A stretch of DNA of 64,000 nucleotides from Dyella subtropica (GTDB lineage Bacteria > Pseudomonadota > Gammaproteobacteria > Xanthomonadales > Rhodanobacteraceae): the NCBI RefSeq assembly GCF_026283965.1, contig NZ_JAPDPD010000024.1:1-64000 (forward strand), given 5' to 3'. The notes beneath the pieces were generated by a model that made no database searches, had not been told where the DNA came from, and worked only from the letters and a program-made list of their open reading frames with translations. Below are positions 1 to 64,000 of this stretch, in pieces (position 1 is the first letter of the stretch; each line of letters opens with the position of its first letter). Made by a program: the position numbers and the translations under genes.

Positions 1-155
1 TGTGTCAGCTCGCCTGCGGCCCGGGCGACGGCGAAGGCAGACTGGCTGTCTGTCGAGGCGGCGCCCGGGCCGCAGGCGAGCTGACACAGCGGCCCCCACA
101 GGTTGAGTCTAGAAGACGGGGTGATGCCTGCGTTGAATAGACCAGAGCATCCCAA
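1..155. repeat. Right part of a dispersed inverted-repeat element (family A)
   Basis: This is the right-hand part of an element related to the one at 36468-36786. Bases 1-26 and 63-88 form a perfect 26-base inverted repeat, enough for one long hairpin. Its loop holds a 22-base stretch (36-57) that reappears in reverse complement at 36647-36668. Bases 135-153 (GAATAGACCAGAGCATCCC) match the right terminal repeat of the other copy with one difference. The left end lies outside the window. I see no coding frame, so I read it as non-autonomous. It stops about ten bases short of the next gene's stop codon. Confidence 0.6.
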
Positions 156-164
156 GCTCTCGGC

Positions 165-959
165 TCAGCCCGCATCCGCCCTGGGCGGCAACGGCGCCGA
201 AAGCGCTATCCGAGCACCGGCACCCGCAATCGCATACCCGCGAGCCGTCAAGGCGGCACCATCCTCGACGCTGCCGTAGTGATAGAGCCTCAGCCGCGAG
301 CGCAAAGCGTCGGGATACTCGCGTTCGATATCGTCGATGCCGGTATGCGAAGGGTTGCCGACCAGACCGCAATCGTGCGCAATGATCTCGGTGCCGCCAG
401 CGTATCGCCCCAGCATCTCCGGCACCGGCCGGGTATCGCCGGTATAGGCAAAGCTGCCCGCCAACGCGATGCCGAAGGACGTTCCCGGCATGTGGTGCCG
501 GGTGGCGAACACGTCGAACCACAAGCCATCGAGCCAGAAACCCCGGCTGCATGGCAGCAAGCGGAAGGCCTCCCAGAAATTGATGCCGCCCTCGGCCAGC
601 ACATTCGGATAGTCGGCCACCCTTCCCTGCAGCCACGGCATCAATCCAGCTTGCAAAAACAGCTTGGTCTGCCCACGCAGACGCTCATCGAACCACAGGC
701 GGAAGAACAAGCGCTCCAGCCCGCCGACATGATCCATGTGCGTATGCGTGATGAAGAGCGCGCGCGGCGGTTCGCCGTACGCTGCGAGATAACGGTCCAG
801 TGTGTCGGGGCCGCAATCGATCAACAACACCGGCTTGCCATCGCGCTCCAGCACCGCCGACGACGAGCCGAGCTCCACCGCATGCGCCGCGCCGACACCA
901 AGGAAATGCAGGGTCCAGTTCATGGGCTTAGCGGCCTGTTCAATGTCGTGGGGTGGCAT
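165..959 (-). CDS. Metallo-beta-lactamase-fold hydrolase
   Basis: A 264-residue protein of the metallo-beta-lactamase superfamily, probably a cytoplasmic metal-dependent hydrolase; its substrate is unknown. The metal motif THTHMDHVGG lies at about residues 71-80 (H72, H74, D76, H77). Later candidate ligands include the His pair in ATRHHMPG, the Asp in AYTGDTRP and a C-terminal His. The overall look is that of RNase Z-like or phosphodiesterase-type enzymes. I chose the ATG at 959 because GAGCGAGG lies just upstream and it sits 12 bases after the kdkA stop; ATG 923 is the alternative. It is probably co-transcribed with kdkA, which suggests but does not prove an envelope-related role. Confidence 0.75.
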   Translation of the reverse strand: MPPHDIEQAAKPMNWTLHFLGVGAAHAVELGSSSAVLERDGKPVLLIDCGPDTLDRYLAAYGEPPRALFITHTHMDHVGGLERLFFRLWFDERLRGQTKLFLQAGLMPWLQGRVADYPNVLAEGGINFWEAFRLLPCSRGFWLDGLWFDVFATRHHMPGTSFGIALAGSFAYTGDTRPVPEMLGRYAGGTEIIAHDCGLVGNPSHTGIDDIEREYPDALRSRLRLYHYGSVEDGAALTARGYAIAGAGARIALSAPLPPRADAG

Positions 960-4923: not shown

Positions 4924-6699
4924 TCAGTCGGTGGTGGGCTTGTCGTGGAACTGCATGCGGTGCAGCGCCGCGTAATGACCGCTCAGCGCTATCAACTCCG
5001 CGTGGGTACCGCGTTCGACGATGCGCCCCTGATCCATCACCGCGATCTGGTCTGCGTGCTCAACGGTGGACAGGCGATGCGCAATCACCAGCGTCGTGCG
5101 ATCGCGCATCAGTCGCTGCAGGGCCTGCTGGATCAGGCGCTCGGATTCGGTGTCGAGCGCACTGGTCGCCTCGTCCAATACCAGGATCGGCGCATTCTTC
5201 AGAATGGCGCGGGCAATCGCCAGGCGCTGGCGCTGGCCGCCCGACAGAAGATTGCCGCCCTGCCCGATGGGGCTGTGGATGCCTTGCGGCAGGCGCTCGA
5301 TGAACTCCAGCGCATTGGCCGCCTCTGCCGCGGCCAAAATCTCCGTTTCACTGGCTCCGGCCAGTTCGCCATAGGCGATGTTCTCTGCCACCGTTCCGTC
5401 GAACAACACCACGTTCTGGCCCACCCAGGCGATCTGGCGGCGCAACGAAGGCAGCGTGAACGACTCGTAATCCAGACCATCCACCAGGATGCGCCCGGTC
5501 GTCGGCGCATTGAAGCGCGGCAGCAGGCTGACGAGGCTGCTCTTGCCGCTGCCTGAGCGGCCTACCAGAGCGGTCACCGTGCCCGGTGCGCAATGCAGGT
5601 CGACACCGCGCAAGGCCTCGAAGTCACCGCGTGGATAAACCAAACCCGCGCCTTCGAAGCGAATGTCGCCGCGCGTCCGCTCCAGCACACGCGTGCCGGC
5701 ATCCACTTCGGGTGGAAGATCGATGATCTCGAACAGATTCTCAGCCGCCGAAATGCCGCTCTGGATATTCGACTGGACGTTGGCCAGACGCTTGAGCGAA
5801 GGCAGCATGCCGCCCATCGCCGTCAGCACGGCAATGAATACACCCGCAGATATCCGCTCGATCTCGTCTGGGCGGGTCGCCAGGAACACCATCACCGCGA
5901 GCGCGAGTGCCGCGACCGTCTGAATAGCCGTACTCGACTGCGCATTCGTCGCGGCGATCTTCAGGTTGAGGCGACGCGTGCGACTGGTGACCTCGTCGAA
6001 ACGCTCAGCCGCTTGCGGCTGGCCGCCATAGATGCGTATTTCACGGTTAGCCCCGACCGACTCCTCGACTGTGCCGGTGACCGAACCCATCATGCCCTGG
6101 ATGCGGCGGCTGATGGCTCGGTAGCGACGGCTCACGATGGCGGCGATCAGCATGATCAGGGGCACCATGATGAACAACGCCAGTGTGAGATACGCGCTGG
6201 TGCTGAGCATCACGTACAGCATGCCGAGCACGGTCATGCCTTCGGTCACCACCACTTTCACCGCATCGGTGGAAGCCGAAGCCACCTGCTCGCTGGTGTA
6301 GGTGATGCGCGAAACCTGGTGCCCCGAGTGCTCCTGCCCGAAGAAAGCCGCGGGCAGACGCAGATAGGCAGCGAATACATCGCGCTGCATGGCATTCACC
6401 ACGTTGCGGCCGATATAGGCCACGCCATAACTGCTGGCGAAGGTACCAATGCCGCGCACGAGGAAGATCAGCACGATCCAGATCGGCATCCAGAAGATCA
6501 GCACCTGATCCTTCTCGGCGAACAGCTTGTCGATCATCGGCACCAGCAGTTTGGTGAAAACCGCCAGGCCGCCGCCGTCGATCGCCATGCCAATCACGGC
6601 AATGACGCCCACCGCCCAGAAACGCCGCGTATAGCCCAGCAGGCGCTTGTAGGTCTGCCGCGTGTGGGCGTCCCATAGCGCGACCTTCTTGCCGCTCAT
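4924..6699 (-). CDS. msbA: Lipid A flippase ABC transporter MsbA
   Basis: A 591-residue half-transporter with an N-terminal six-helix membrane domain (about residues 20-320) and a C-terminal ATPase. The ATPase shows Walker A GRSGSGKSS, signature LSGGQRQRLAIARA, Walker B ILVLDEATSALD and the H-loop in IAHRLST. MsbA flips core-lipid A across the inner membrane. Its ATG overlaps the exbD stop by four bases and lpxK follows at once, so exbB-exbD-msbA-lpxK reads as one operon. MsbA and related lipid exporters are hard to tell apart by motif, but the lpxK partner makes the assignment firm. Confidence 0.93.
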   Translation of the reverse strand: MSGKKVALWDAHTRQTYKRLLGYTRRFWAVGVIAVIGMAIDGGGLAVFTKLLVPMIDKLFAEKDQVLIFWMPIWIVLIFLVRGIGTFASSYGVAYIGRNVVNAMQRDVFAAYLRLPAAFFGQEHSGHQVSRITYTSEQVASASTDAVKVVVTEGMTVLGMLYVMLSTSAYLTLALFIMVPLIMLIAAIVSRRYRAISRRIQGMMGSVTGTVEESVGANREIRIYGGQPQAAERFDEVTSRTRRLNLKIAATNAQSSTAIQTVAALALAVMVFLATRPDEIERISAGVFIAVLTAMGGMLPSLKRLANVQSNIQSGISAAENLFEIIDLPPEVDAGTRVLERTRGDIRFEGAGLVYPRGDFEALRGVDLHCAPGTVTALVGRSGSGKSSLVSLLPRFNAPTTGRILVDGLDYESFTLPSLRRQIAWVGQNVVLFDGTVAENIAYGELAGASETEILAAAEAANALEFIERLPQGIHSPIGQGGNLLSGGQRQRLAIARAILKNAPILVLDEATSALDTESERLIQQALQRLMRDRTTLVIAHRLSTVEHADQIAVMDQGRIVERGTHAELIALSGHYAALHRMQFHDKPTTD

Positions 6700-7127
6700 T
6701 GCCCCTTGTCCGCCTGGCTCGGCGTGGTGGCAATCGATAGCTTGGTGAAGCCGAGCTGGCCCAGCGCATCCATCGCTATCACCACGTTCTGATGCGACGT
6801 CATCGCGTCGGCGCGGATGGTGACCTGACGCTCGCGGTCGTCACCGGCGACATTGGCGATGGCCTGCTTGAGCGGCTCGACGCCCTGCCCCAGCACCTCA
6901 TCGCTGCCCACGTAGTAGTGCCCGTCGCGATCCACTACCACGGTGAGCGCGGGCGCCTGCATATCGCGTTCTTCGGCGCTTGCCTTGGGCAAGGTCACCT
7001 GCATCCGCGAGTGCTGGATGAAGGTGGTGGTGAGCACGAAAAACATCAGCAGGGTAAGCAGTACGTCGATCAGGGAGATCACATTGATCTCGAAGTCGTC
7101 GTGCCGACGGTCGTTGCCGATACGCAT
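6696..7127 (-). CDS. exbD: Biopolymer transport protein ExbD/TolR
   Basis: A 143-residue ExbD/TolR family protein with a short cytoplasmic N-terminus and one membrane helix (about residues 17-37, INVISLIDVLLTLLMFFVLT). The helix carries the conserved Asp (D21 in SLIDVLL) that conducts protons, and a periplasmic domain follows. With ExbB it forms the proton-driven motor that energises TonB-dependent or related outer-membrane processes. No tonB is present here, so the partner could be TonB elsewhere or a dedicated system. Start ATG 7127 lies six bases after the exbB stop, and its end overlaps msbA by four bases. Confidence 0.88.
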   Translation of the reverse strand: MRIGNDRRHDDFEINVISLIDVLLTLLMFFVLTTTFIQHSRMQVTLPKASAEERDMQAPALTVVVDRDGHYYVGSDEVLGQGVEPLKQAIANVAGDDRERQVTIRADAMTSHQNVVIAMDALGQLGFTKLSIATTPSQADKGQ

Positions 7128-7133
7128 GCGGGG

Positions 7134-7799
7134 TCAGCCTGCGCTCGACTCGGTGGAAACAGTACTGGCCGTGTGGCGCGCACGTGCCGTTGCCAGCGCG
7201 GACATGGTCAGCTCGTCCAGCAGGACGGTGGCCTGCTTTTCCATCTCCACGCAATAGCCGGCGACCCGCGAGCGGAAGTAGCGATGCAGGACATAGGCGG
7301 GAATGGCCACGATCAGGCCGGTGGCCGTGCAGATCAGCGCTTCGCCGATGCCGCCGGCCATCTTCATGGGGTCGCCCACGCCACCCTTCATCACGTCCAG
7401 GAACATGCGAATCAGGCCGATCACCGTACCCAGCAGACCGAGCAGCGGGCCAATCAGCGCGATGGTGCCGAGCGTATTCAGATAGCGCTCCATGTTGTGC
7501 ACCACATGACGGCCGGTGTCTTCGATGCGCTCCTTGATGAGCTCACGCGGACGGTTGCGCACAGCCAGCGCCGAGGCCAGCAGCTCACCCAGCGGCGAGC
7601 CGTTCGCCAGTGTGGCGAGATGGGCGGGGTCGAGCTGGCCGGAGCGGGCCCAGGTGCGCACCTCGTCGCCCAAACCGGGCGGCAGCACCGACTTGCGGCG
7701 CAAGGTCCAGCAACGCTCGAGAACGATCGCCAACGCGACCGCGGAACAAATCAGGATGGGCAGCATTGCCCAACCGCCAGCCATCAGGATTTCAAGCAC
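7134..7799 (-). CDS. exbB: MotA/TolQ/ExbB proton channel family protein
   Basis: A 221-residue inner-membrane protein with three helices at about residues 8-28, 113-135 and 155-178. The second and third include the GPLLGLLGTVIGLI signature of TolQ/ExbB channels. It supplies the proton-channel subunit for the ExbD motor. The start is a GTG at 7799 after GGTGGGTAGTC; an ATG at 7781 is a possible alternative. It is the first gene of the exbB-exbD-msbA-lpxK operon. The reversed sequence about 40 bases upstream contains TATGAT, a plausible -10 element, but I see no clear -35. Confidence 0.88.
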   Translation of the reverse strand: MLEILMAGGWAMLPILICSAVALAIVLERCWTLRRKSVLPPGLGDEVRTWARSGQLDPAHLATLANGSPLGELLASALAVRNRPRELIKERIEDTGRHVVHNMERYLNTLGTIALIGPLLGLLGTVIGLIRMFLDVMKGGVGDPMKMAGGIGEALICTATGLIVAIPAYVLHRYFRSRVAGYCVEMEKQATVLLDELTMSALATARARHTASTVSTESSAG

Positions 7800-7937
7800 G
7801 ACTACCCACCCATGCGATCACATGCAGGGGCGCATCATAGCAGTCCCTTCCAGCGGTTCCGCGGCGTCCGTGGCAATTGCGCAAAGTGGCTTTACGTGCC
7901 ACGAAAACCCTGAGAGCCAGACCTCACTGGGCAGCGC

Positions 7938-10259
7938 TCATTCGCGCCAATAGCGTGCCCGATAAGTGCGCCAGGTCAGGGCGACTGCCGGCGGGCCATC
8001 GGCCGGGAAATCCATTCGAATCGCACCGCTGTCGGCCGTATTCAGCAAAGGCACCCCGAGTTGGGCGTAGCGCGCCACTACCGTCGGATGAGGATGGCCG
8101 AAGCGGTTGCGCCAGCCGGCCGAAACCAGGCCCCAGTCGGGATCTAGAGCACGAATGAACGGTTCGCCCGACGATGTACGGCTGCCATGATGCGGAACTT
8201 GCAGCACCAGCGGGGCCCCATCCGTTGCTTCGGCAGCTAACTGGGATTCAATCCGGCTGCCTATATCCCCCGTGAGCAGCACGCGCCCCGCAGCCCCCTC
8301 GACCAGCACGACGCATGAGCGATCGTTGCCTTTGTCGCCGGGCCGCACCTGGCTTGGGCTCAAGACGCGGAAGTGCACGCCATCCCAATCCCACGTTTGC
8401 CCGGCTTCGCAGCCCTCCATGGGCAGAGGCATGCGCTCTGACTCACCGGCCAGGCGCTTGGCATCGGGAAAAGCAGCAGCCACCACTTGAGTGCCACCCG
8501 CGTGGTCATTGTCGGCATGGCTCACCATCAGCATGTCCAACCGATCGATACCGAGCGCGCGCAGGGAAGGAAGCACCGCCGCCTCGCCCAGATCGAAGTC
8601 CGACGGATAACGTGCCCCAGTGTCGTAGACCAGCGCATGGTTTCGCGTACGAAGAACCATCGAAAGCCCCTGCCCCACATCCAGCATCCACAGCTGAAAC
8701 GCCCCTTGAGCAGGCAAGGCAAGTGGCGGCCAAACCAACGGCAGGAACAGCAATCCGCCAAGCCCCCGCAGCGGAACACCACGCGGAAGAAACAGCCACC
8801 ACGCACCCAGCGTCGCCAGCACCAACACCCATGGCTTCACTTCGGGCAGATACCAATGCGCGCCGGGCCAGCCCGCCATCCGCTCGAGCAGCCACCACTG
8901 CCCATGCGCCAACCAGGCGGCCAGTCGGAACACGGGCGTCGCCAGTGGCGGGCAAAGGCCGAGCATGAGGGTGCCAAGCAAGGCGAATGGCACCACGACA
9001 AAACTGACGAAGGGCACCGCAACCAAGTTGGACAAGGCCCCAACCAGCGACGCTTCGCCAAAGAACCACAAGGTCAACGGCAGCAACGACAAGGTCATCA
9101 CCAGCTGCCCTGCCGTGAGCTCGCGCAGGAAACCCCGAAGACCGCGCCCATGTGCCGTGAGGCAAAGCATCAGGAAGGCTACGCCGACAAAGGAGAGCCA
9201 GAACCCGGCGGAAAGCACGGCGAGTGGGTCCACCAGCAAGATGACCAACAGAGCAAGCGCAAGTGACTGCGCCCCGCTGCCATGACGTCGCGTGCATCGC
9301 GAAAACGCCACCACGGCGATCATCAGCAGGGTGCGCACCGTCGGCAGTCCGAAGCCAGCCAATGCGCTGTAGAGCGTGGCGACCAACAACGCCGCCGTCG
9401 CTTGTGCTTGCAAACGCGGCACCCGGAGACCGAACCCAGGCCAACAGCTGTAGATGAACTGAAGCAGCCAGAGGCCGGCGACGGCCGCCACGCCCACATG
9501 AAAACCAGAGATCGCAATGAGGTGCGATATGCCATTGGCGCGCGCGATCTCCCAGTCGCGCTGGCTGAGGTCGCGAATGTCGCCGACCGTGAAGGCTTTC
9601 AGCAAAGCGGCATCATGTGGATCACCAACGCGTTCGGCGATATCGCGGGCGATCGCATCGCGAACGCGGTTGATACAAGGCCGTGGCGATCCAAGCGAGG
9701 TATTGGCCGGGTCTTCGCGCACGTAGCCCGTTGCGACGATACCGTGCTCCAGCGATGTGCGCTCACTGTCGCCGCCACCAGGATTAACCAAACCGCGCGG
9801 CCGTTTCAGACGAAGGTTCAACCGCCATTGTGCACATGGCACCAGTGCCGGAACGGCATTTTTTTCGGTGGCGTACCACGCCACGCGAAGCCGTCCGCGA
9901 AGGTCTATCGGACGGCCATCCACCGATACCTGTTCCGCTGTCAGGACAAACCGCGTGGCGTCCTTCCGCACCTGCGGCAGATCGCTGACGGTGCCGGTGA
10001 CGACAAAATCGCGCCCCTCCAGCTCACGCGGCAGCCGCGCCTCCATGCCTCGACTACCGCACCAGCATGCCCAGGCCATGCCTAGACATACCCATGCAAG
10101 CCATCGCAGCCGTGGCCAGCGCCATGCTGAAACAAGCGACACCACACCAAACGCCGCGGAGAACCAAAGTGGTGGCAGGCTCGGCAGCCACTGCACCACA
10201 ACCACGCCGAACAACAGAGCCGCTGCCGTCGCCACCAGGCCTTGAACGCGCACCGCCAT
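7938..10259 (-). CDS. comEC: DNA internalisation competence protein ComEC/Rec2
   Basis: A 773-residue inner-membrane channel protein for uptake of single-stranded DNA. The N-terminal third holds the DUF4131/OB-like region. The middle (about 215-490) is the multi-helix competence domain with HLIAISGFHVG. The C-terminal third is a metallo-beta-lactamase domain with SHADNDHAGG and later LLTGDI and VPHHGSRTSS. The length is normal and every expected block is present, so the gene looks intact and the strain may be naturally transformable. It reads toward exbB, with 138 bases between the genes, and is probably transcribed alone. Confidence 0.93.
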   Translation of the reverse strand: MAVRVQGLVATAAALLFGVVVVQWLPSLPPLWFSAAFGVVSLVSAWRWPRLRWLAWVCLGMAWACWCGSRGMEARLPRELEGRDFVVTGTVSDLPQVRKDATRFVLTAEQVSVDGRPIDLRGRLRVAWYATEKNAVPALVPCAQWRLNLRLKRPRGLVNPGGGDSERTSLEHGIVATGYVREDPANTSLGSPRPCINRVRDAIARDIAERVGDPHDAALLKAFTVGDIRDLSQRDWEIARANGISHLIAISGFHVGVAAVAGLWLLQFIYSCWPGFGLRVPRLQAQATAALLVATLYSALAGFGLPTVRTLLMIAVVAFSRCTRRHGSGAQSLALALLVILLVDPLAVLSAGFWLSFVGVAFLMLCLTAHGRGLRGFLRELTAGQLVMTLSLLPLTLWFFGEASLVGALSNLVAVPFVSFVVVPFALLGTLMLGLCPPLATPVFRLAAWLAHGQWWLLERMAGWPGAHWYLPEVKPWVLVLATLGAWWLFLPRGVPLRGLGGLLFLPLVWPPLALPAQGAFQLWMLDVGQGLSMVLRTRNHALVYDTGARYPSDFDLGEAAVLPSLRALGIDRLDMLMVSHADNDHAGGTQVVAAAFPDAKRLAGESERMPLPMEGCEAGQTWDWDGVHFRVLSPSQVRPGDKGNDRSCVVLVEGAAGRVLLTGDIGSRIESQLAAEATDGAPLVLQVPHHGSRTSSGEPFIRALDPDWGLVSAGWRNRFGHPHPTVVARYAQLGVPLLNTADSGAIRMDFPADGPPAVALTWRTYRARYWRE

Positions 10260-54721: not shown

Positions 54722-56533
54722 ATGAGCGACCGCACCCACCTCAGCCTCATCCGTCTTGCCACCCTGCGCCAGGCCATGCACCAGCAAGGTGTCACAGCCT
54801 GCCTCGTTCCCAGCGCCGACCCTCATCTTTCCGAATATCTGCCCGCGCATTGGCAGGCCCGCGCCTGGCTGTCCGGCTTTACCGGCTCGGCCGGCACGTT
54901 GGTGGTGACCCAGGACCATGCCGGCCTGTGGACCGACTCCCGCTACTTTGCCCAGGCCGAACAACAACTGGCCGGCAGCGGCATTGCCCTGATGAAGCAG
55001 CGCATGTCGCACGCGTCCGAGCATCTGGACTGGTTGCAGCAGCATATGGACGAAGGCGAGGTACTGGCGGTGGCCGGCGACAGCCTTGCCCTCTCCACCC
55101 AGCGTCACATCGAGCGCCGCTTTGAAGCATCCGGCGCCCGCCTGCGCACCGATCTGGACCTGCCCGGCGCGATCTGGACCGATCGTCCGCCCTTGCCCAC
55201 CGCCCCGGTGAGCGAACACACCCTGCACTATGCCAGCGTGCCGCGCGCCGACAAGTTCACGCGATTGCGCACCACCATGCGCAAGCTCGGCGCCAGCCAC
55301 CATCTGGTATCCAGCCTGGACGACATCGCCTGGCTGACCAACTTGCGCGGCAGTGATGTCGAGTGCAATCCAGTGTTCTTGTCGCATCTGTTGGTCGAAG
55401 CCGACGGACATGCCACGCTGTTCATCGAGCGTGGCAAGTTGAGCGACGCCTTGGTGGTCTCGCTGGCCGCCGACGGTATCCAGCTCGCCGATTACGCCAC
55501 CGTCACCGATGCACTGGGCGAGCTGAGCAAGAGCGATAGCCTTCTACTGGATAGCAGCCGCGTCGTCAGCGCCATCGCCGCCGCCATTCCGCAGGCGACC
55601 CAACGCATCGAGGCCGCCAACCCGTCCACGTTATTCAAAGCGCGCAAGGGCGCGGCCGAGCTGGATCACATTCGCGATGTGATGCGCCGCGATGGCGCCG
55701 CACTGGTGCGCGCCTTCCGCCGTCTGGAAGAACGCCTTGTGGCCGGCATGAGCCAGACTGAGCTGGATGTGGAGACCTTGCTGCGCGAGGAGCGCTCCGC
55801 CCAACCCGATTTTGTCGGCGAAAGCTTCTCCACCATCGCCGGCTATCAAGCCAACGGCGCCCTGCCGCACTACCGCGCCACACCGGAAAGCCACAGCACC
55901 CTCAAGCCGCAGGGCCTGCTGCTGGTCGATTCCGGTGGCCAGTACCTCGGCGGCACCACCGATATCACCCGTGTGCTGGCCCTGGGCGAGACCACCGCTG
56001 AGCAGCGCCGCGACGCCACCCTGGTGATGAAGGGCCTGATCGCGTTGTCCCGCGCACGCTTTCCCAGGGGCGCCAGCGGTCCGCAACTCGATGCGCTGGC
56101 GCGCGCGCCGCTATGGGCCAGCGGCATGGACTACGGCCATGGCACGGGCCACGGCGTCGGCTTTTTCCTCAACGTGCATGAAGGGCCGCAGGGCATTCGT
56201 CCGCCGATCCAGGGCGGCGCCCTGGTGCCGCTGGAGCCCGGCATGATCAGCTCGATCGAACCTGGCCTGTACAAGCCAGGCCGGCACGGTATCCGCCACG
56301 AAAACCTCGCCGTGGTGGTGGAAGCCGACCTGACCGAGTTCGGCGAGTACTACGCCTTCGAAACGCTCACGCTGTGCCCGTTCGACCGACGCGCGCTGGA
56401 ACCCAGCCTGCTCAATCCCGAAGAGCGAGCCTGGCTGGACGACTATCACGCCACCGTGCGCGCCGCGCTCAGCCCGCTACTGGAAGATGCTGACCTGATC
56501 TGGCTGGAGCGGCATTGCGCGCCGCTCTTATGA
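54722..56533 (+). CDS. Xaa-Pro aminopeptidase (M24B, long form)
   Basis: A 603-residue aminopeptidase P of the long type: two creatinase-like N-terminal domains (about 1-305) and a C-terminal pita-bread M24 domain. The metal ligands are in LLVDSGGQYLGGTTDITR (two Asp), GHGTGHGVGFFLNVHEGP (His) and ISSIEPGLYKPG plus GIRHENL (two Glu). It releases N-terminal residues preceding Pro from peptides in the cytoplasm. It is longer than E. coli PepP (441) and closer to the eukaryote-like forms. Divergent from pyrG across 132 bases. Confidence 0.93.
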   Translation: MSDRTHLSLIRLATLRQAMHQQGVTACLVPSADPHLSEYLPAHWQARAWLSGFTGSAGTLVVTQDHAGLWTDSRYFAQAEQQLAGSGIALMKQRMSHASEHLDWLQQHMDEGEVLAVAGDSLALSTQRHIERRFEASGARLRTDLDLPGAIWTDRPPLPTAPVSEHTLHYASVPRADKFTRLRTTMRKLGASHHLVSSLDDIAWLTNLRGSDVECNPVFLSHLLVEADGHATLFIERGKLSDALVVSLAADGIQLADYATVTDALGELSKSDSLLLDSSRVVSAIAAAIPQATQRIEAANPSTLFKARKGAAELDHIRDVMRRDGAALVRAFRRLEERLVAGMSQTELDVETLLREERSAQPDFVGESFSTIAGYQANGALPHYRATPESHSTLKPQGLLLVDSGGQYLGGTTDITRVLALGETTAEQRRDATLVMKGLIALSRARFPRGASGPQLDALARAPLWASGMDYGHGTGHGVGFFLNVHEGPQGIRPPIQGGALVPLEPGMISSIEPGLYKPGRHGIRHENLAVVVEADLTEFGEYYAFETLTLCPFDRRALEPSLLNPEERAWLDDYHATVRAALSPLLEDADLIWLERHCAPLL

Positions 56534-56539
56534 GCGGCG

Positions 56540-56650
56540 TGCAAGGGGTGAGAAGTGAGAAGTAAGTGCGCAAGTCCGAGACGCCATCGCCTACCTGCGT
56601 GCTTACCCCTTACTGCTTACTCCTTGCGCCCCTTGGCCCCTTGACCTCTT
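56540..56650. other. Purine/pyrimidine-biased, partly self-complementary spacer
   Basis: After the aminopeptidase stop, AAGGGGTGAGAAGTGAGAAG and following bases are faced about 50 bases later by a pyrimidine-rich run (CTTACCCCTTACTGCTTACT) that can pair imperfectly with it. It may form a long imperfect stem acting as terminator before parE. No gene is present. Confidence 0.35.
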
Positions 56651-56698
56651 AGACCCCTCACCTCATCCTCCCGCGACTCGCCTGATCGAAAACCACTA

Positions 56699-58588
56699 AT
56701 GAGCAGTCGCTACAACGCCGCCGACATCGAAGTCCTCTCTGGCCTTGACCCGGTCAAGCGCCGGCCGGGCATGTACACCGACACCAGCCGCCCGAACCAT
56801 CTGGCGCAGGAAGTCATCGACAACTCGGTGGACGAGGCGCTGGCCGGCCATGCCAAGTCGATCGATGTGATCTTGCATAGCGACGGCTCGGTCGAGGTCA
56901 GCGACGACGGTCGCGGCATGCCGGTGGACATCCATCCGGAGGAAGGTATTCCCGGCGTGGAGCTGATCCTCACCCGCCTGCACGCGGGCGGTAAATTCTC
57001 CGGCAAGAACTACAACTTCTCCGGCGGCCTGCATGGCGTGGGCGTGTCGGTGGTGAATGCGCTGTCCAACCGGGTGGAAGTCACCATCCGTCGCGATGGC
57101 AACGAATACCGCATGGCGTTCGAGCACGGCGACCGCGTCAGCGAGCTGGAGATCATCGGCAGCGTGCCGAAGAGAAAGACCGGTACCACCGTGCACTTCT
57201 GGCCGGAAGCGAAGTACTTCGACTCGCCGAAGATCTCGCTGTCCAAGCTCAAGCACCTGCTGCGCGCCAAGGCCGTGCTGTGCGCCGGCCTCAATGTGAA
57301 GCTCACCGATGAGGCCAGCGGCGAAGTCGTCGAATGGCATTACGAGGACGGCCTGCGCGACTACCTGCGCGGCGAACTGGAAGGCGCCGAGTCACTGCCC
57401 TCCGATCTTTATGTGCACCACGTGGCCCGCGAGACCGAAGGCCTGGACGTCGCCCTCGCCTGGCTGCCGGAAGGCGAACTGGTGCAGGAGAGCTACGTCA
57501 ACCTGATCCCGACTGCGCAAGGTGGCACCCATGTCAACGGCCTGCGCAGCGGCCTGACCAATGCCATCCGCGAGTTCTGCGACATCCGCAACCTGCTGCC
57601 GCGCGGCGTGAAGCTGGCGCCGGAAGACGTGTGGGAGCGCCTGGCCTTCGTACTGTCGGCCAAGCTGCAGGATCCGCAGTTCGCCGGCCAGACCAAGGAG
57701 CGTTTGTCCTCGCGTAATGCCGCAGCACTGGTCGAAAACGTCGTGCACGACGCCTTCAGCCTGTGGCTGAACCAGAACGTGGAACTGGGTGAACGCATCG
57801 CCCAGCTCGCCATCGAGCGCGCCAGCGCGCGCCTGAAGGCGTCCAAGCAGGTCATCCGCAAAAAGATCACGCAAGGCCCCGCCCTGCCCGGCAAGCTGGC
57901 TGATTGCACCGCGACGGATCTCAACCGTACCGAGCTGTTCCTGGTGGAGGGCGACTCCGCCGGCGGCAGCGCCAAGCAGGCACGCGACAAGGAGTTCCAG
58001 GCGATCCTTCCGCTACGCGGCAAGATCCTCAACACCTGGGAAGTGGAATCCGGTTCGGTGCTCGGCTCCGAGGAAGTGCACAACCTCGCCATCGCCATCG
58101 GCTGCGATCCCGGCAAGGACGACCTCAGCAGCCTGCGCTACGGCAAGGTCATCATTCTGGCCGACGCCGATTCCGACGGCCTGCATATCGCCACCCTGCT
58201 CACCGCGCTGTTCCTGCGCCATTTCCCGTCGCTGGTGCGCGAAGGGCACGTATTCGTGGCGATGCCGCCGCTGTTCCGCGTCGACGTGGGCAAGCAGGTG
58301 TTCTACTGCCTCGACGAGAACGAAAAAGCCGCGATGCTGCAGCGGATCGAGCGCGAGAAAATGAAAGGCCAGGTCAGCACCACCCGCTTCAAGGGTCTGG
58401 GCGAGATGAACCCGTCTCAGCTACGCGAATCCACCATCCACCCCGATACCCGCCGCCTGGTGCAGCTCACCGTCGACGACGGTGAAGGCACCGCCAAGCT
58501 GATGGACATGCTGCTGGCGAAAAAGCGCGCCAGTGACCGCAAGGCCTGGCTGGAAGAAAAGGGCGACCTGGCAACGCTGGAGGTTTGA
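56699..58588 (+). CDS. parE: DNA topoisomerase IV subunit B
   Basis: A 629-residue ATPase subunit of topoisomerase IV, which unlinks daughter chromosomes. The GHKL ATPase (about 1-230) shows VIDNSVDEALAGHA and DDGRGMPVDIHPEEG. The transducer domain follows, then TOPRIM with LVEGDSAGGSAKQARDKEFQ, PLRGKILN and DADSDGLHI. The length and the absence of the long GyrB insertion mark it as ParE. It stands alone, with 108 bases to the next gene. Confidence 0.97.
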   Translation: MSSRYNAADIEVLSGLDPVKRRPGMYTDTSRPNHLAQEVIDNSVDEALAGHAKSIDVILHSDGSVEVSDDGRGMPVDIHPEEGIPGVELILTRLHAGGKFSGKNYNFSGGLHGVGVSVVNALSNRVEVTIRRDGNEYRMAFEHGDRVSELEIIGSVPKRKTGTTVHFWPEAKYFDSPKISLSKLKHLLRAKAVLCAGLNVKLTDEASGEVVEWHYEDGLRDYLRGELEGAESLPSDLYVHHVARETEGLDVALAWLPEGELVQESYVNLIPTAQGGTHVNGLRSGLTNAIREFCDIRNLLPRGVKLAPEDVWERLAFVLSAKLQDPQFAGQTKERLSSRNAAALVENVVHDAFSLWLNQNVELGERIAQLAIERASARLKASKQVIRKKITQGPALPGKLADCTATDLNRTELFLVEGDSAGGSAKQARDKEFQAILPLRGKILNTWEVESGSVLGSEEVHNLAIAIGCDPGKDDLSSLRYGKVIILADADSDGLHIATLLTALFLRHFPSLVREGHVFVAMPPLFRVDVGKQVFYCLDENEKAAMLQRIEREKMKGQVSTTRFKGLGEMNPSQLRESTIHPDTRRLVQLTVDDGEGTAKLMDMLLAKKRASDRKAWLEEKGDLATLEV

Positions 58589-58696
58589 CCCGAAGGGCAC
58601 ACCGCATCGCCCCTGTTTTTGCCCGAACTTTCCATCGTGCTATCACGTTCGGCAGACATGCTGCACGGATAAGGACTTCCAACCAAGAGCGTCAAC

Positions 58697-61207
58697 ATGC
58701 TCCTCGCTGACCATCCACAGGAAGTGGATCACCACTCGGATGTGGCGGATGTAATCACTGACTCACCAAGCCCTATCGCCGTCCGCTTGACCGGGCTCGA
58801 CGGGCTTCGCGCCATCGCCGTCACCGCGGTGCTGCTGTTTCATGCCGATTTCTACTGGGCCAGGGGTGGCTATCTCGGCGTCGACCTGTTCTTCGTGATC
58901 TCGGGCTTCCTGATCACGGGATTGCTGGCGAGCGAAATTCAGACGTCCAAACGCCTGGATCTCGGCCAGTTCTACTGGCGCCGCGCCAAGCGCCTATTGC
59001 CCGCGGCCTGGCTGATGATGGCGGGCGTCATCGCCGCAGCGGCATGGTTTGCTACCGATGCCCTGCCGCACCTGCGGGGCGATGCGACGGCATCTCTCGT
59101 CTACCTGACGAATTGGGAATTGCTGCGCACCCATACGTCGTACTTCGAAGCCACCGGTCGACCGCCCTTGCTACAGCACCTTTGGTCGCTGGCTATCGAG
59201 GAACAGTTCTACATCGTGTGGGCGCCACTGGTTCTGCTGGGCCTGCCACGCATCGGCCGGCGTGGCTTGGCCGTGGTGGCGGCGATACTGGCGATAGCGT
59301 CCGCGGCATGGATGGCGGTACTGGCCATGAAAATGGGCTACCCGGACCAAGGGGACCCCTCGCGACTTTATTTCGGCACCGACACGCATGGCTTTCCGCT
59401 ATTGCTAGGCGCCGTGCTTGGGCTTTCCTGGCAACCCAGCCGCGCAACACGGCCACTCCGTCCCGTGACCCGCGGCGCCGGATTCCTGCTGGGCCTGGCC
59501 GCGCTGGCGATGATGTTCGCGCTGTTCGCCTGCCTGGGAGAGGAGACCCCGTCGCTCTATCCCTGGGGCTTTCTCCTGGCCGCGGCGTCGAGCATCACGC
59601 TTGTCGCGACAGCCACCCATCCGGGCCTATCGTTCGGCCGCTGGCTCGATAGCGGGCTGCTGCGCTGGATCGGCGAGCGCTCCTACGGGATCTATCTATG
59701 GCACTGGCCCGTCTTCATGCTGACGCGGCCAGGCATCGATGTGTACGCGCTGGATGCGAACACGATTCTGATACTGCGCATGGCGCTGACGGTCTGCATC
59801 GCCGCGCTCTCTTATCGGTATCTGGAAGCACCGATCCGCCACGGCGCGCTCGAACGCCTCTGGCGCCAAATGACCACACGCCGCAGCACCTGGCTACGCC
59901 GCACGGCCGTCATGCTGACCGTGCTCATGGCCTTTGGCGCGATGGGCGCCGTCCTGCTGCAGGCGCCCACCCAGGCAAAGCCGGCGCAGGATGTACGCGA
60001 CGCACTGGGTCTCGATGCCACGGCCAGCGCCATGGATGCCAAAGACAAGGCCAGCCCGGCTGTGGCCGAGTCGACAGCCGAAACACTCCAGCCGGTGGAG
60101 GCTCCCGCTGCGCCCGATCAGCCCGATCAGCCACCGGTGCAGACCTTCACTGGCCAGGAGCTGACGGCGGTGGGCGATTCGGTACTGCTAGGTTCCGGCA
60201 GACGGCTCAAGGCCACACTGCGTGGGGCGGATGTTCACGCCACGATGGGCTGGCAGGCCGCCGATGTGATCAAGCAACTCAAGGCTTTGCACAATGCCGA
60301 CCAGCTGCGCCCGGTGACACTGATCCACCTGGGCACCAATGGCTACATCACCGAGGCTCAGCTCCGGCAGATACTCTCCATGCTTGCCGACCGTGAACGC
60401 GTGATTCTGGTGAACACGCATGTGCCGCGGCGCTGGATGGAGACCAACAATGCACTGATCGAGCGCGTAGCACCCGACTTCCCCAACGTGGTGAGCGTCC
60501 GATGGAACGATGTCTCGGAGGGCCAGCCGGATTACTTTGTCTCCGACGGCGTCCATCTGACCGACATCGGCCAGCACGCCTTCATCGCCGCCATCATGCG
60601 CGAGGGGCATCTGGTGCCCGGCACGCAGAATGCACCCAGTCCAACCGCTATCGACACCAGCAAGGACTACACCGCCAGCGCGGGCGATCTGTCACTCACC
60701 TTGGTCCGCGCATCGCAATCGGCACCTTCCGACAAATACTGGCAAAAGATGGCGCTCTGCGAGACCGATGCGAACTGGCAAAACGCCGGACGCCATTCGG
60801 GCGGCCTCGGCATCTCCGTCGCGGACTGGACGACATGGGGAGGTGTGGAATTCGCGCCCACCCCGGCGGAGGCGACGCCCGCGCAACAAATCGAGGTAGC
60901 CAATCGCATGTCCACCCAGGGCTGGACACAAGCGGACGGCACCACGGTGAAACCGATCGGCTTCACCACTTGGCGTTGCGTGGCTGCACTCGGCCGTCCG
61001 CCCACCACATCCGCTTATACGTACACACCGCAGAGCGTGATCGCGCAATCCTTCCATCTGGGCGAACGCGGCGAGGTGGTGCGCGACCTGCAACTGATCC
61101 TCGGTGCATCGCGCGATGGCATCTACACCAAGGCTCTGCGCAAGAAACATCTGGCGTATCTGAAGCACAACGACCTGCCCGAAACTCTGGCAGGCTCGGA
61201 GCCTTGA
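58697..61207 (+). CDS. OatA-like O-acetyltransferase fused to an Rpf/transglycosylase-like domain
   Basis: An 836-residue multidomain envelope protein. Residues 30-385 are an acyltransferase-3 membrane domain (FHAD with His49, GVDLFFVISGFLI, WSLAIEEQFYIVW); a further helix is at 401-421. After a Pro/Ala linker, residues 487-640 form an SGNH domain like that of OatA: GDSV (Ser495), LGTNGYITEAQL (Asn548), SDGVHLTDIG (Asp617, His620). Residues 680-765 match the Rpf/transglycosylase-like fold: KMALCETDANW (Cys688, Glu689), GGLGISVADWTTWGG, QQIEVANRM and Cys761. Residues 786-826 (GERGEVVRDLQLILG) look like a peptidoglycan-binding domain. I infer acetylation and cutting of peptidoglycan by one chain. 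Confidence 0.8.
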   Translation: MLLADHPQEVDHHSDVADVITDSPSPIAVRLTGLDGLRAIAVTAVLLFHADFYWARGGYLGVDLFFVISGFLITGLLASEIQTSKRLDLGQFYWRRAKRLLPAAWLMMAGVIAAAAWFATDALPHLRGDATASLVYLTNWELLRTHTSYFEATGRPPLLQHLWSLAIEEQFYIVWAPLVLLGLPRIGRRGLAVVAAILAIASAAWMAVLAMKMGYPDQGDPSRLYFGTDTHGFPLLLGAVLGLSWQPSRATRPLRPVTRGAGFLLGLAALAMMFALFACLGEETPSLYPWGFLLAAASSITLVATATHPGLSFGRWLDSGLLRWIGERSYGIYLWHWPVFMLTRPGIDVYALDANTILILRMALTVCIAALSYRYLEAPIRHGALERLWRQMTTRRSTWLRRTAVMLTVLMAFGAMGAVLLQAPTQAKPAQDVRDALGLDATASAMDAKDKASPAVAESTAETLQPVEAPAAPDQPDQPPVQTFTGQELTAVGDSVLLGSGRRLKATLRGADVHATMGWQAADVIKQLKALHNADQLRPVTLIHLGTNGYITEAQLRQILSMLADRERVILVNTHVPRRWMETNNALIERVAPDFPNVVSVRWNDVSEGQPDYFVSDGVHLTDIGQHAFIAAIMREGHLVPGTQNAPSPTAIDTSKDYTASAGDLSLTLVRASQSAPSDKYWQKMALCETDANWQNAGRHSGGLGISVADWTTWGGVEFAPTPAEATPAQQIEVANRMSTQGWTQADGTTVKPIGFTTWRCVAALGRPPTTSAYTYTPQSVIAQSFHLGERGEVVRDLQLILGASRDGIYTKALRKKHLAYLKHNDLPETLAGSEP

Positions 61208-61228
61208 ATTCCTGGAGACCCAAACCTC

Positions 61229-62581
61229 ATGGCACACGTTTCACGCTTCATCACGATGGGTGCCTGGTGCATGGGATTCATCGCGTTGTCGATAGCGCGC
61301 CCCACCGCGGCCCAGGACAGCCTGCCCGTGGCAAATATCAGCGACCTGGCGTGCCCCAACGCGCCGCCAGCACCAAAACCGCCGTCAGGCCGTCCGTCCG
61401 CGGGCGTTTCCATGGTCGGCACCCAGATGCCGAGCGATGCCGAACTCGGCCCCCTGGCCAGAACGGTGATCCGCGACCAGCCAGTACTCGATCCCAGCGC
61501 GATTTCTGGTTTCGCACTCGGCGACACGACGCAGCCTCGCCGCATCGCCTTCTGGGGTGACAGCCATATCGCCGGTGGGCCGCTCATGCCTACCATCATC
61601 GAGACGCTGCGCAGCCGCGGCCTGAGCGTGGCTCCCCGCTTTCTTCCGCCGACCATGGGGCGCGCCAACATCAACCTGCCCGGGCTGCGGGCCTACTGCA
61701 TCGGCTCTGGATGGTCGACGGAAATCGCCTATACCTCAGCCACGCCGATCGCCAGCGGACCGGCCTTGATGAACCGCATGGCCGACGCCGGGCCGGACAG
61801 CTACCTCTGGCTCGATCTGCGCAATGCTGTGCGACAACCCAACGTACGCCAGCTGCAGCTTGTCTATCGCGCGCCCGCCGGCGCCACGATTGGCTACACC
61901 ATCAACGACGGCGAGCCATTCAGTGCCCCTCTGGCGGCCGCGAGCGACAGTCAGACACTGACTATCCGCAGCGATCGACCGATCTCGACGATCAAGCTGC
62001 GCGTAACACAGGGCAAGCTGGTGCTGTACGGCCTCATTCTCGACTACATACAACCGCCGACGATCACCTTCGACGTGTTCGGCCTGCCCTCCGCTACCGT
62101 GCGCGGCTGGGCCAATGCCGATCCCGACTACCTCGCACAAACCCTGCACGGCGTGAACTATGACGGCGTCGTGCTGGAATACGGCACCAACGAAGGGGCC
62201 GCCTCCGATTTCGACGCCGATAAATATGCGGCGACGCTGACTCAGGCACTGACTCACTTACGCAAGGTCTTCCCATCGATCTCCTGCGTCCTTGTCGGGC
62301 CACCCGATCGTGGCTCACTGCGCTCAGGCAAGGTGCGTCCGCTCCCCTTGCTCGCGTACGGACACATCCATCAACGGATCGAAGGCATTCAACGGCAAGT
62401 CGGCAACCAGTTCGGCTGCACCGTCTGGAGCTGGCAGGACCTGATGGGCGGACCCGGCGGCAGCTACGGCTGGGCGCACGCCCAGCCCAGCATGATGGGT
62501 CGCGACCTCATCCATCTGAGCCCGGATGGATACCGGCGCACCGGCCGCGCGCTGGCTCATAGTCTGGGCTGGGGGCCTTAA
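61229..62581 (+). CDS. Secreted SGNH hydrolase, Ape1-like peptidoglycan O-acetylesterase candidate
   Basis: A 450-residue exported protein with a signal peptide ([13 protein letters not shown], about 1-29). SGNH blocks are [10 protein letters not shown] (Ser112), EYGTNEG (Asn321) and [12 protein letters not shown] (Asp426, His429). About 200 residues separate blocks I and III and contain a beta-rich insert ([19 protein letters not shown]). Neisserial Ape1 also carries an inserted beta domain and a GTNE block. The gene follows the OatA-like fusion by 21 bases on the same strand. A role in removing acetyl groups from MurNAc is therefore likely but unproven; another acetylated glycan is possible. 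Confidence 0.75.
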
Positions 62582-62666
62582 TCCAACGCTAGGCCATCGA
62601 CTGCGCGGGCATTCCCCGGGCCGGTCAGCGACGCTATCTTGTCTCCATACCCCGCCGGAACGCCCC

Positions 62667-63194
62667 ATGTCCCTGCTGCCACCGATCAATCTGACACGCT
62701 GGATCGACGAACACCGCCACCTGCTCAAGCCGCCGGTCGGCAACAAGTGCATCGTCGACGGCGACTTCATCGTGATGATCGTCGGCGGGCCCAATGCGCG
62801 CACCGACTATCACTACGACGAAGGCCCGGAATTCTTCTATCAGCTCGAAGGCGAAATGGTGCTCAAGGTGCAGGACGGCGGCACCGCGCGCGACATCCCG
62901 ATTCGGGCCGGCGAAATGTTCTACCTGCCACCGCGTGTGCCGCACTCGCCGCAGCGCATGCCGGACTCCATCGGCCTGGTGATCGAGCGCCGCCGTTTAG
63001 CCGACGAAAAAGACGGGCTGCTGTGGTTCTGTCAGCACTGCAACCACAAACTCTATGAGGAGTACTTCACCCTCGAGAGCATCGAACGCGATTTTCCACC
63101 GGTGTTCGAGCGTTTCTACCGCTCGCGCGAGGCGCGCACCTGCCAGCAATGCGGCCAGCTGCACCCTGCGCCTTCTAAGTACGAATCCATGTAG
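62667..63194 (+). CDS. nbaC: 3-hydroxyanthranilate 3,4-dioxygenase
   Basis: A 175-residue cupin dioxygenase opening the ring of 3-hydroxyanthranilate toward quinolinate and NAD. The iron ligands are in [19 protein letters not shown] (His, Glu) and the later [11 protein letters not shown] (His). The C-terminal rubredoxin-like iron site is visible as CQHC and CQQC, typical of the bacterial enzyme. Together with kmo at 26689 it indicates de novo NAD synthesis from tryptophan. The TAG stop (63192-63194) is part of the GTAG of a REP element. Also called haaO. Confidence 0.93.
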
Positions 63195-63361
63195 GAGCGC
63201 ACCCTGTGCGCGACAAACCGGCAGGACTGCCGGTTTGCACGGCGATAGCCGCCCCAAGGGCGAGGGCCATGGGTGGCCCGAGTGAAACGGCCCGACAGGA
63301 TCGTGCTCCGTACGGGCCCGGCCCTGCTGTGCAGGGCTTTCGCCGACAGGGTGGCTCCTAC
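63191..63361. repeat. Composite REP element joining nbaC and Nudix stops
   Basis: The left arm begins GTAGGAGCGCACC at 63191 and the right arm ends GGTGGCTCCTAC at 63361. Inside are the ACCGGCAGGACTGCCGGTTT hairpin and the middle block shared with the 47926 copy, then a further GC-rich hairpin region (63310-63340). Each GTAG end supplies the TAG stop of the flanking convergent gene. Confidence 0.82.
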
Positions 63362-63936
63362 AAAGTACTGCGCTCCAGCCACTTGGCCGCCATGCGCCGT
63401 AGCGACACATCCGCGCTCGCGTCATCTGCGATCTCGCGGATCGACCTCCACGCCAGCGCCAGCGATTCCTCGCTGACCGCAAACGCCTCGCTACCTGTCG
63501 CGCGCACCACGTAGCGTACGTCGTAGTGCCAGTGCCCCGGCACGTCGCCACGCTCGGGTATCCAGTGGCGGTCGACGTCGAAGATCTCGTCCTCAACCTG
63601 CAGATCGGCGAGCCCCGACTCCTCTCCCGCCTCGCGCAGGGCCACCCGCGCGAGGTCGGTATCACCATCCGCATGGCCACCCAGCTGCAGCCAGCGAGCC
63701 AGCTTGCGGTGATGGGTCAGCAGCACGCGCTCGCCGTCGTTGCTCACCAGCCAGGCCGAACCGGTGAAATGACCGGCGAGATGATGACGCTGGAAGGCAT
63801 CCGGCGTTTCGCTGAGAAAGTGGAGGAAGTGCGCCACCTGATCTTCATCGGGCCAACGCTGCTGATAACGGTCGAAAGAATGACGCACGCACACCTCGTG
63901 ATTGACGGCTGTGAACGACGAGTCATTCATCGCCAT
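63358..63936 (-). CDS. Nudix hydrolase
   Basis: A 192-residue Nudix protein, a Mg-dependent pyrophosphohydrolase of nucleotide-type substrates. The Nudix box is close to canonical: GGHADGDTDLARVALREAGE and then ESGL. VLLTHHRKLARWLQLGGH precedes it, as in the mutT-like group that acts on small nucleotides. ATG 63936 or 63930; the upstream frame adds nothing recognisable. Its TAG stop (63358-63360) lies in the GTAG end of the REP element, after WLERSTL. Convergent with nbaC. The bases up to the window end contain only its upstream region. Confidence 0.85.
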   Translation of the reverse strand: MAMNDSSFTAVNHEVCVRHSFDRYQQRWPDEDQVAHFLHFLSETPDAFQRHHLAGHFTGSAWLVSNDGERVLLTHHRKLARWLQLGGHADGDTDLARVALREAGEESGLADLQVEDEIFDVDRHWIPERGDVPGHWHYDVRYVVRATGSEAFAVSEESLALAWRSIREIADDASADVSLRRMAAKWLERSTL

Positions 63937-64000
63937 ATTTTTCAGAACGCTCTTACATCTTACCGCGCATCCAACTCCTAGCCTGACGACGTGATCCACG

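Follow-up and report, generated by a model that had tools for sequence, protein, structure and literature searches.

A candidate peptidoglycan O-acetylation module in Dyella subtropica: an OatA-like acetyltransferase fused to an Rpf domain, beside a predicted Ape1-like esterase

Can one polypeptide both mark the cell wall against cleavage and cleave it? O-acetylation is regarded as a substrate-level control of wall-cutting enzymes, and the proteins that write the acetyl mark, erase it and cut the wall have been described as separate. The question is raised by a locus of Dyella subtropica, in a 64,000-nucleotide stretch of DNA (the window; positions 1 to 64,000 of contig NZ_JAPDPD010000024.1), where a single gene encodes an AT3 acyltransferase membrane domain, an SGNH domain, an Rpf (transglycosylase-like) domain and a tail, and the gene of a second SGNH protein follows. 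We consider it probable, on the strength of sequence comparisons, that these two genes constitute an OatA-like peptidoglycan O-acetylation module of the Gram-negative periplasm, in which the cutter would be fused to the writer and the eraser encoded next to it. The same arrangement had been proposed in a first-pass annotation, read from the DNA letters alone, and it was favoured here by profile searches, by comparison of structures, by conservation and by the linkage of the genes, the activities themselves being deduced from homology. 

The fusion protein and its predicted partner esterase

The fusion frame is open over its entire length of 836 residues, as had been claimed (Table 1). Its reality was judged from a comparison of 85 loci, 15 of which contain the Rpf segment; these collapse to 11 distinct proteins including that of the window, the pairs L002/L011, L004/L010, L005/L012 and L008/L013 being merged as identical across the compared part. 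The order AT3, SGNH, Rpf and tail is common to all 11 (the fusions of L003, L006 and L007 are visible only from inside the AT3 domain onward), and their source records are labelled or placed as Proteobacteria. An assembly or frameshift artefact joining separate genes, a doubt raised already by the first-pass annotation, has a negligible probability and is regarded as excluded: no evidence in support of it was found, and ten distinct fusion proteins from genomes other than the window's retain the single frame with the same domain order.

The 11 fusions have diverged to 43-44% identity over residues 425-836, and the Rpf region is as conserved as the SGNH domain (mean conservation 0.79 and 0.78, respectively, with 0.74 in the tail and 0.50 in the linker). 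The residues named in the first-pass annotation, Ser495, Asp617 and His620 in the SGNH domain and the Cys688-Glu689 pair and Cys761 in the Rpf domain, stand at those positions and are invariant in all 11 proteins. The C-terminal part (residues 425-836) was modelled by AlphaFold2 from 32 alignment rows, with a mean predicted local distance difference test score (pLDDT) of 68.5.

The AT3 domain, recognised by PF01757, carries the motif FFVISG at residues 65-70 and His49. The SGNH domain remains below the Pfam cut-off (PF13472, E 0.052 with the whole protein and 0.0015 with the domain alone); against the PDB its closest relative, by sequence and by model, is Staphylococcus aureus OatA (phmmer to 6wn9, E 3.7e-15; profile to 6vjp, 2e-35; Foldseek with the model to 6wn9, E 1.9e-11 and template modelling (TM) score 0.86 by target length), which bears out the earlier description of an OatA-type domain with a complete triad. 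OatA has the motifs GDSV, G(T/V)N and Dx(I/V)H, and a block II of the form (V/I)(G/S)(R/V) in which the Val/Ile is invariant (PMC5697884). The first three patterns occur in all 11 fusions, where Gly-Asp-Ser-Val (493-496), Asn548, Asp617 and His620 are kept. The layout is that of OatA too, with an N-terminal AT3 domain joined to an SGNH domain whose extracytoplasmic placement is predicted: the final hydrophobic segment, residues 403-421, would put the C-terminal domains in the periplasm. A search of the window's genome for MBOAT (PF03062) gave no match with an E value of 0.001 or lower (the control was positive in 3 of 14 genomes), therefore no PatA, and with it no usual Gram-negative route, is recognisable there; this negative covers PF03062 only, other AT3 proteins of the genome being outside the survey.

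That the third domain belongs to the Rpf family was also borne out, since the search against PF06737 ('Transglycosylas') that had been suggested gave a significant match at residues 678-743 (E 2.2e-11, 44.7 bits against a cut-off of 27; 48.9 bits with the domain alone), and in the PDB the segment matched RpfC (5.5e-6) and RpfB (2.1e-4). Besides the two cysteines and the glutamate, Trp694, Ile732, Gln741-Gly-Trp and Trp759 are invariant in the 11 fusions. In RpfB a hydrophobic pocket is made by Ile288, Trp297, Val309, Phe311, Ile337 and Trp352 (PMC11978375); its equivalent is found in the fusions as M685, W694, L704, I732 and W759 in all 11, with Ile or Met at 706, when residues are mapped by the PDB alignment of the segment and the RpfB residue numbers. 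The model has a helix ending at the Cys-Glu pair (model residues 255-265). The tail is suggestive of peptidoglycan binding by sequence: a comparison with six PG_binding_1 domains encoded in the window's genome gave an hhalign probability of 55% (E 1.2e-4), and a PDB search with it gave nothing convincing.

The second frame starts 21 bases past the end of the fusion gene. It had been described as a secreted SGNH esterase with an inserted beta domain, and its motifs and an AlphaFold2 model of modest confidence (mean pLDDT 59.4) agree with this. The Ser, Asn and Asp-His residues of Ape1-type SGNH enzymes are present in the motifs GDS (110-112), GTN (319-321) and DLIH (426-429), which are invariant in the 7 rows of the partner alignment A2. 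Both the sequence profile and the structure model place the protein closest to Ape1 specifically. The profile (7 sequences) matched 4k3u, which we take to be the Neisseria meningitidis enzyme, with E 5.8e-19, followed by 8gkd (2.3e-9) and 8gld (2.8e-9); Foldseek with the model gave 8gkd (9.1e-16) and 4k3u (9.6e-16), and Ape1 chains fill the first five places (TM 0.60-0.63 by target). The titles under which 4k3u and 8gkd/8gld are listed there are 'Peptidoglycan O-acetylesterase in action' and the Campylobacter jejuni peptidoglycan O-acetylesterase Ape1. In the model the beta domain sits between Ser112 and Asp426, the position of the inserted beta-sandwich of Ape1; in the Neisseria Ape structure, given without a PDB code, a beta domain likewise lies between two SGNH parts (PMC6174289).

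Table 1. Features of the two genes (window coordinates)
Feature	Position	Residues	Strand	Basis or key residues
Fusion gene AT3 - SGNH - Rpf - tail	58697..61207		+	single 836-aa open frame
AT3 acyltransferase membrane domain	58793..59815	33-373	+	PF01757 E 1.3e-34
Final hydrophobic segment	59903..59959	403-421	+	Kyte-Doolittle scan, crude prediction
OatA-like SGNH domain	60158..60616	488-640	+	Ser495, Asn548, Asp617, His620
Rpf (transglycosylase-like) domain	60728..60979	678-761	+	Cys688-Glu689, Gln741, Cys761
Lengthened loop near expected Rpf cleft	60926..60970	744-758	+	15 residues in 11/11 fusions
Conserved tail weakly like PG_binding_1	61019..61186	775-830	+	own profile matches all fusion loci
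Ape1-like secreted SGNH esterase (predicted)	61229..62581	450 aa	+	Ser112, Asn321, Asp426, His429
Probable signal peptide of esterase	61229..61315	1-29	+	one hydrophobic segment 4-22; cleavage site guessed
Inserted beta domain of esterase	61778..62083	~184-285	+	AlphaFold2 strands; pLDDT 71-88 for 191-280

Linkage, distribution and origin of the gene pair

The partner gene is directly downstream in 10 of the 11 distinct fusions, and all 11 genomes hold it; in L014 the contig breaks off within the fusion frame, and the partner stands at the start of a different contig from the same genome. A census of this link, proposed with the first-pass annotation, thus found the two together in every distinct case. 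When 14 genomes were searched, one partner was detected in each of the eight fusion genomes, none in the five congeners that have no fusion, and a partial match in the genome of L075. Given this linkage and the congeners that lack both genes, the genomes examined have either the whole pair or neither gene.

In the window, L011, L012, L013 and L114 the pair lies between parE and haaO, that is between a topoisomerase subunit gene (the label parE is put on a gyrase-B-like gene) and a 3-hydroxyanthranilate dioxygenase gene (haaO, named after annotated matches), with about 1 kb extra before haaO in L012 and L013. The gap between parE and haaO measures approximately 100-220 bases in four of the five congeners and about 900 bases in the fifth (L109), and in G232/L010 the pair stands elsewhere on the same contig. 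Neither Rfam families (positions 56000-64000) nor a sigma-70-like promoter pattern (58400-62750) were detected around the window's pair. Several observations on this place may be added. The interval 58589-62666, from parE to haaO, is a variable slot, which in L111 holds another small gene; the longer gap of L109 contains a frame that reads like a lipoprotein; and in L012 (9942-11018) there is a 359-residue open frame between the esterase and haaO, overlapping the haaO frame.

PF06737 matched in 9 of 233 Rhodanobacteraceae genomes, and eight of these matches are fusions. The remaining candidate, L009, was rejected as a ninth fusion of the family: its PF06737 score of 21.4 bits is below the cut-off and query pieces P1 and P2 had no match, the frame presumably being a Slt-type transglycosylase with a LysM-like end. 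Matches were found in 6 of 398 genomes of the order sample, all Rhodanobacteraceae, in 1 of 321 of the class sample and in 1 of 349 of the phylum sample, the last two being the window's own genome; the order of L015's genome gave 2 of 147, both of them fusions already known. These samples overlap, and the PF06737 control behaved as expected: of 14 genomes it was positive in Corynebacterium glutamicum alone. The L015 record is titled Klebsiella pneumoniae, a label that is probably wrong, as its 2.1 Mb genome falls into the 147-genome order sample together with that of L014 (an uncultured proteobacterium).

A profile match spanning both SGNH and Rpf was absent among the matches listed from 396 actinobacterial genomes, with up to four candidates scored per genome, and none of 72,556 plasmid records covered 80% of the SGNH-Rpf part, eight matching within the SGNH part. 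The fusion is thus rare and confined to Proteobacteria within this survey; Actinobacteria have its parts as individual proteins. At two actinobacterial loci, L028 (7841-8692) and L058 (7949-8629), a second SGNH frame lies convergent beside the AT3-SGNH gene.

For the AT3-SGNH part, the window and 59 of the 85 loci were placed in a quick maximum-likelihood tree, which left out the partial copies L001-L008 and loci without either domain or without enough of AT3; it was midpoint-rooted for drawing only. Eight fusions form one group (Shimodaira-Hasegawa-like approximate likelihood ratio test, SH-aLRT, 99) that adjoins L075 (99; flagged as a long branch), which is gammaproteobacterial and carries AT3-SGNH without Rpf (5875-8709). 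All remaining rows of the tree are actinobacterial or chloroflexotal, apart from one of Sphaerobacter. Behind the L075 gene, at the contig end, lies a 122-residue piece with a weak match to the partner profile (22.4 bits, E 2.7e-5), and L075 may represent an earlier stage of the module. An order in which an OatA-like gene acquired an Ape1-like neighbour and Rpf was fused later would fit, the neighbour in L075 being that weak contig-end piece. As a separate observation, block II of L075 reads IGR, which matches the published OatA pattern.

Possible action of the module and competing explanations

According to the reading that we favour, the AT3 domain would carry acetyl groups across the inner membrane and the SGNH domain would set them on peptidoglycan, presumably at the C-6 hydroxyl of N-acetylmuramic acid (MurNAc), as in OatA, where AT3 uses acetyl-CoA to acetylate a Tyr and the acetyl group then reaches peptidoglycan by way of the SGNH Ser (PMC12148441). 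The fused Rpf domain would cut the bond between MurNAc and N-acetylglucosamine (GlcNAc) in non-acetylated strands, and the separate Ape1-like enzyme would strip the acetyl groups so that cutting can proceed. Because C-6 O-acetylation of MurNAc inhibits lysozymes and lytic transglycosylases (PMC6174289), one and the same site would be either protected or cut by the fusion, with the esterase setting the balance. The acetylated position, the topology, the regulatory logic and all the activities are what we infer from sequence relationships. In favour of this reading are the closeness of the SGNH domain to OatA and of the partner to Ape1, the Rpf score above the cut-off and its SGNH-like level of conservation, the gene linkage, the lack of an MBOAT match, and the start of a gene weakly matching the partner profile behind the Rpf-less L075. 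Precedents exist as well: Gram-negative bacteria that make O-acetyl MurNAc encode Ape for its removal, the pat operon includes ape1 (PMC6174289), and Neisseria LtgA binds and stimulates Ape1, which in turn stimulates LtgA on acetylated wall (PMC7083599). In a bolder form, which we put forward tentatively, the one polypeptide would decide for each MurNAc-GlcNAc site whether to acetylate and so protect it or to cut it, the esterase resetting the mark; this would be a self-contained, acetylation-gated cutting machine and a Gram-negative counterpart of growth or resuscitation driven by Rpf.

Several results weigh against the proposed module and temper the earlier reading. Block II is MGW in 8 of the 11 fusions and VGW in 3, which departs from the OatA pattern; therefore the domain is named OatA-like and not OatA proper. 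RpfB contacts its sugar through Gln310, Asp312, Thr315, Gln347 and Tyr305 (PMC11978375). Gln347 corresponds to Q741, kept in all 11 fusions; Gln310 is replaced in all 11 (Gly in 10, Asp in 1) and so is Asp312 (Ser/Thr in 8, Tyr in 3), Thr315 is changed to Asp in 8 and retained in 3, and Tyr305 is changed to His/Arg in 8 and retained in 3, a comparison with one RpfB complex that need not define the whole family and that leaves out Ala351 and Pro353. The 50 matches that Foldseek listed for the model of residues 425-836 include no Rpf structure. PF01471 was not reached in the window's tail (the tail of L054 gave E 0.11, below the cut-off); the tail is conserved, and its likeness to peptidoglycan-binding domains is weak. 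The module is present in only 8 of 233 genomes of the family and in none of five congeners, so it is dispensable in the lineage. Finally, acetylation should inhibit cutting by the fused Rpf domain itself.

This last paradox would be sidestepped if the locus were an acetylation and de-acetylation system with a non-cutting Rpf domain, which would serve, together with the tail, to grip the glycan strands and hand them to the SGNH domain. The replaced sugar contacts speak for such a role, and so does the fixed loop between Gln741-Gly-Trp and Trp759, which would sit near the cleft: it has 15 residues in all 11 fusions against 2 in RpfB by residue numbers, where the loop 348-353 is said to modulate substrate access (PMC11978375). 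We hold a gripping domain to be unlikely, nevertheless it is a serious rival, and cutting versus gripping is the main point at issue. A catalytic glutamate is needless for mere gripping, and Glu689 is kept in all 11 proteins along with both cysteines, Trp694, Ile732, Gln741 and Trp759, despite the low identity that these proteins have reached.

Another possibility concerns the substrate. Gram-negative AT3-SGNH fusions include the O-antigen enzymes OafA/OafB and PglI of pilin glycan (PMC7448272, PMC9558356), and Ape has been described with relative substrate promiscuity (PMC6174289), hence the fusion might acylate another envelope polymer (O-antigen, exopolysaccharide) like Salmonella OafB, with the esterase acting on that polymer. 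This appears distinctly less probable than a gripping Rpf domain, since PDB searches with the SGNH part matched OatA and had no OafB entry among the matches listed, the family of the fused domain consists of peptidoglycan-cleaving proteins, the partner is nearest to Ape1, and the genes flanking the pair in the window are those of the topoisomerase subunit and the dioxygenase, with no polysaccharide genes (the neighbours of L010, L014, L015 and L054 were outside this comparison).

Significance and comparison with known systems

If the peptidoglycan module is what it appears to be, all three steps of cell wall control, writing, cutting and erasing, would be encoded by a pair of neighbouring genes, so that their coupling would be directly testable, and OatA-like acetylation with an Ape1-like eraser, plus an Rpf domain, would have been brought into Gram-negative bacteria. 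The fusion also hints at a possible joint action of OatA-like and Rpf proteins in Actinobacteria, where the two are separate. The first-pass annotation did not recognise the AT3-SGNH-Rpf combination as described, and our search agrees: within the open-licence literature searched, no description of it was found among the matches listed. The reported fusion partners of AT3 are mainly SGNH and alanine racemase, with others in eukaryotes (PMC9558356, PMC9833829); the term 'transglycosylase' is absent from both papers, and 'Rpf' from PMC9833829. A 2005 survey had Rpf domains confined to Actinobacteria (PMC1084345).

Compared with the known systems, the fusion resembles OatA of Gram-positive bacteria in joining AT3 and SGNH in one chain, in the motifs GDSV, GTN and DGVH and in having 6wn9/6vjp as the nearest solved structures; it differs from OatA in its Gram-negative host, in the additional Rpf domain and tail and in block II. 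With the patA-patB-ape1 (O-acetylpeptidoglycan) clusters the module shares the placement of writer genes and an Ape esterase gene in one short cluster, and such clusters adjoin other wall genes, the one of Zymomonas mobilis, for example, having a cell wall hydrolase nearby (PMC1199599); here, however, the writer is OatA-like instead of MBOAT plus PatB, and the presumed cutting domain is inside the writer. The Rpf part is like Rpf (PF06737) in its score, catalytic Glu, Cys pair, hydrophobic pocket and Gln347 equivalent, and unlike it in being carried by a proteobacterial membrane acetyltransferase, in the changed sugar contacts and in a cleft loop approximately 13 residues longer. The LtgA-Ape1 complex of Neisseria meningitidis (PMC7083599) is similar in that a lytic enzyme works with Ape1; LtgA, however, is a separate outer-membrane lipoprotein cutter that is untied to a writer, whereas in the Dyella protein the candidate cutter and the candidate writer are parts of one chain.

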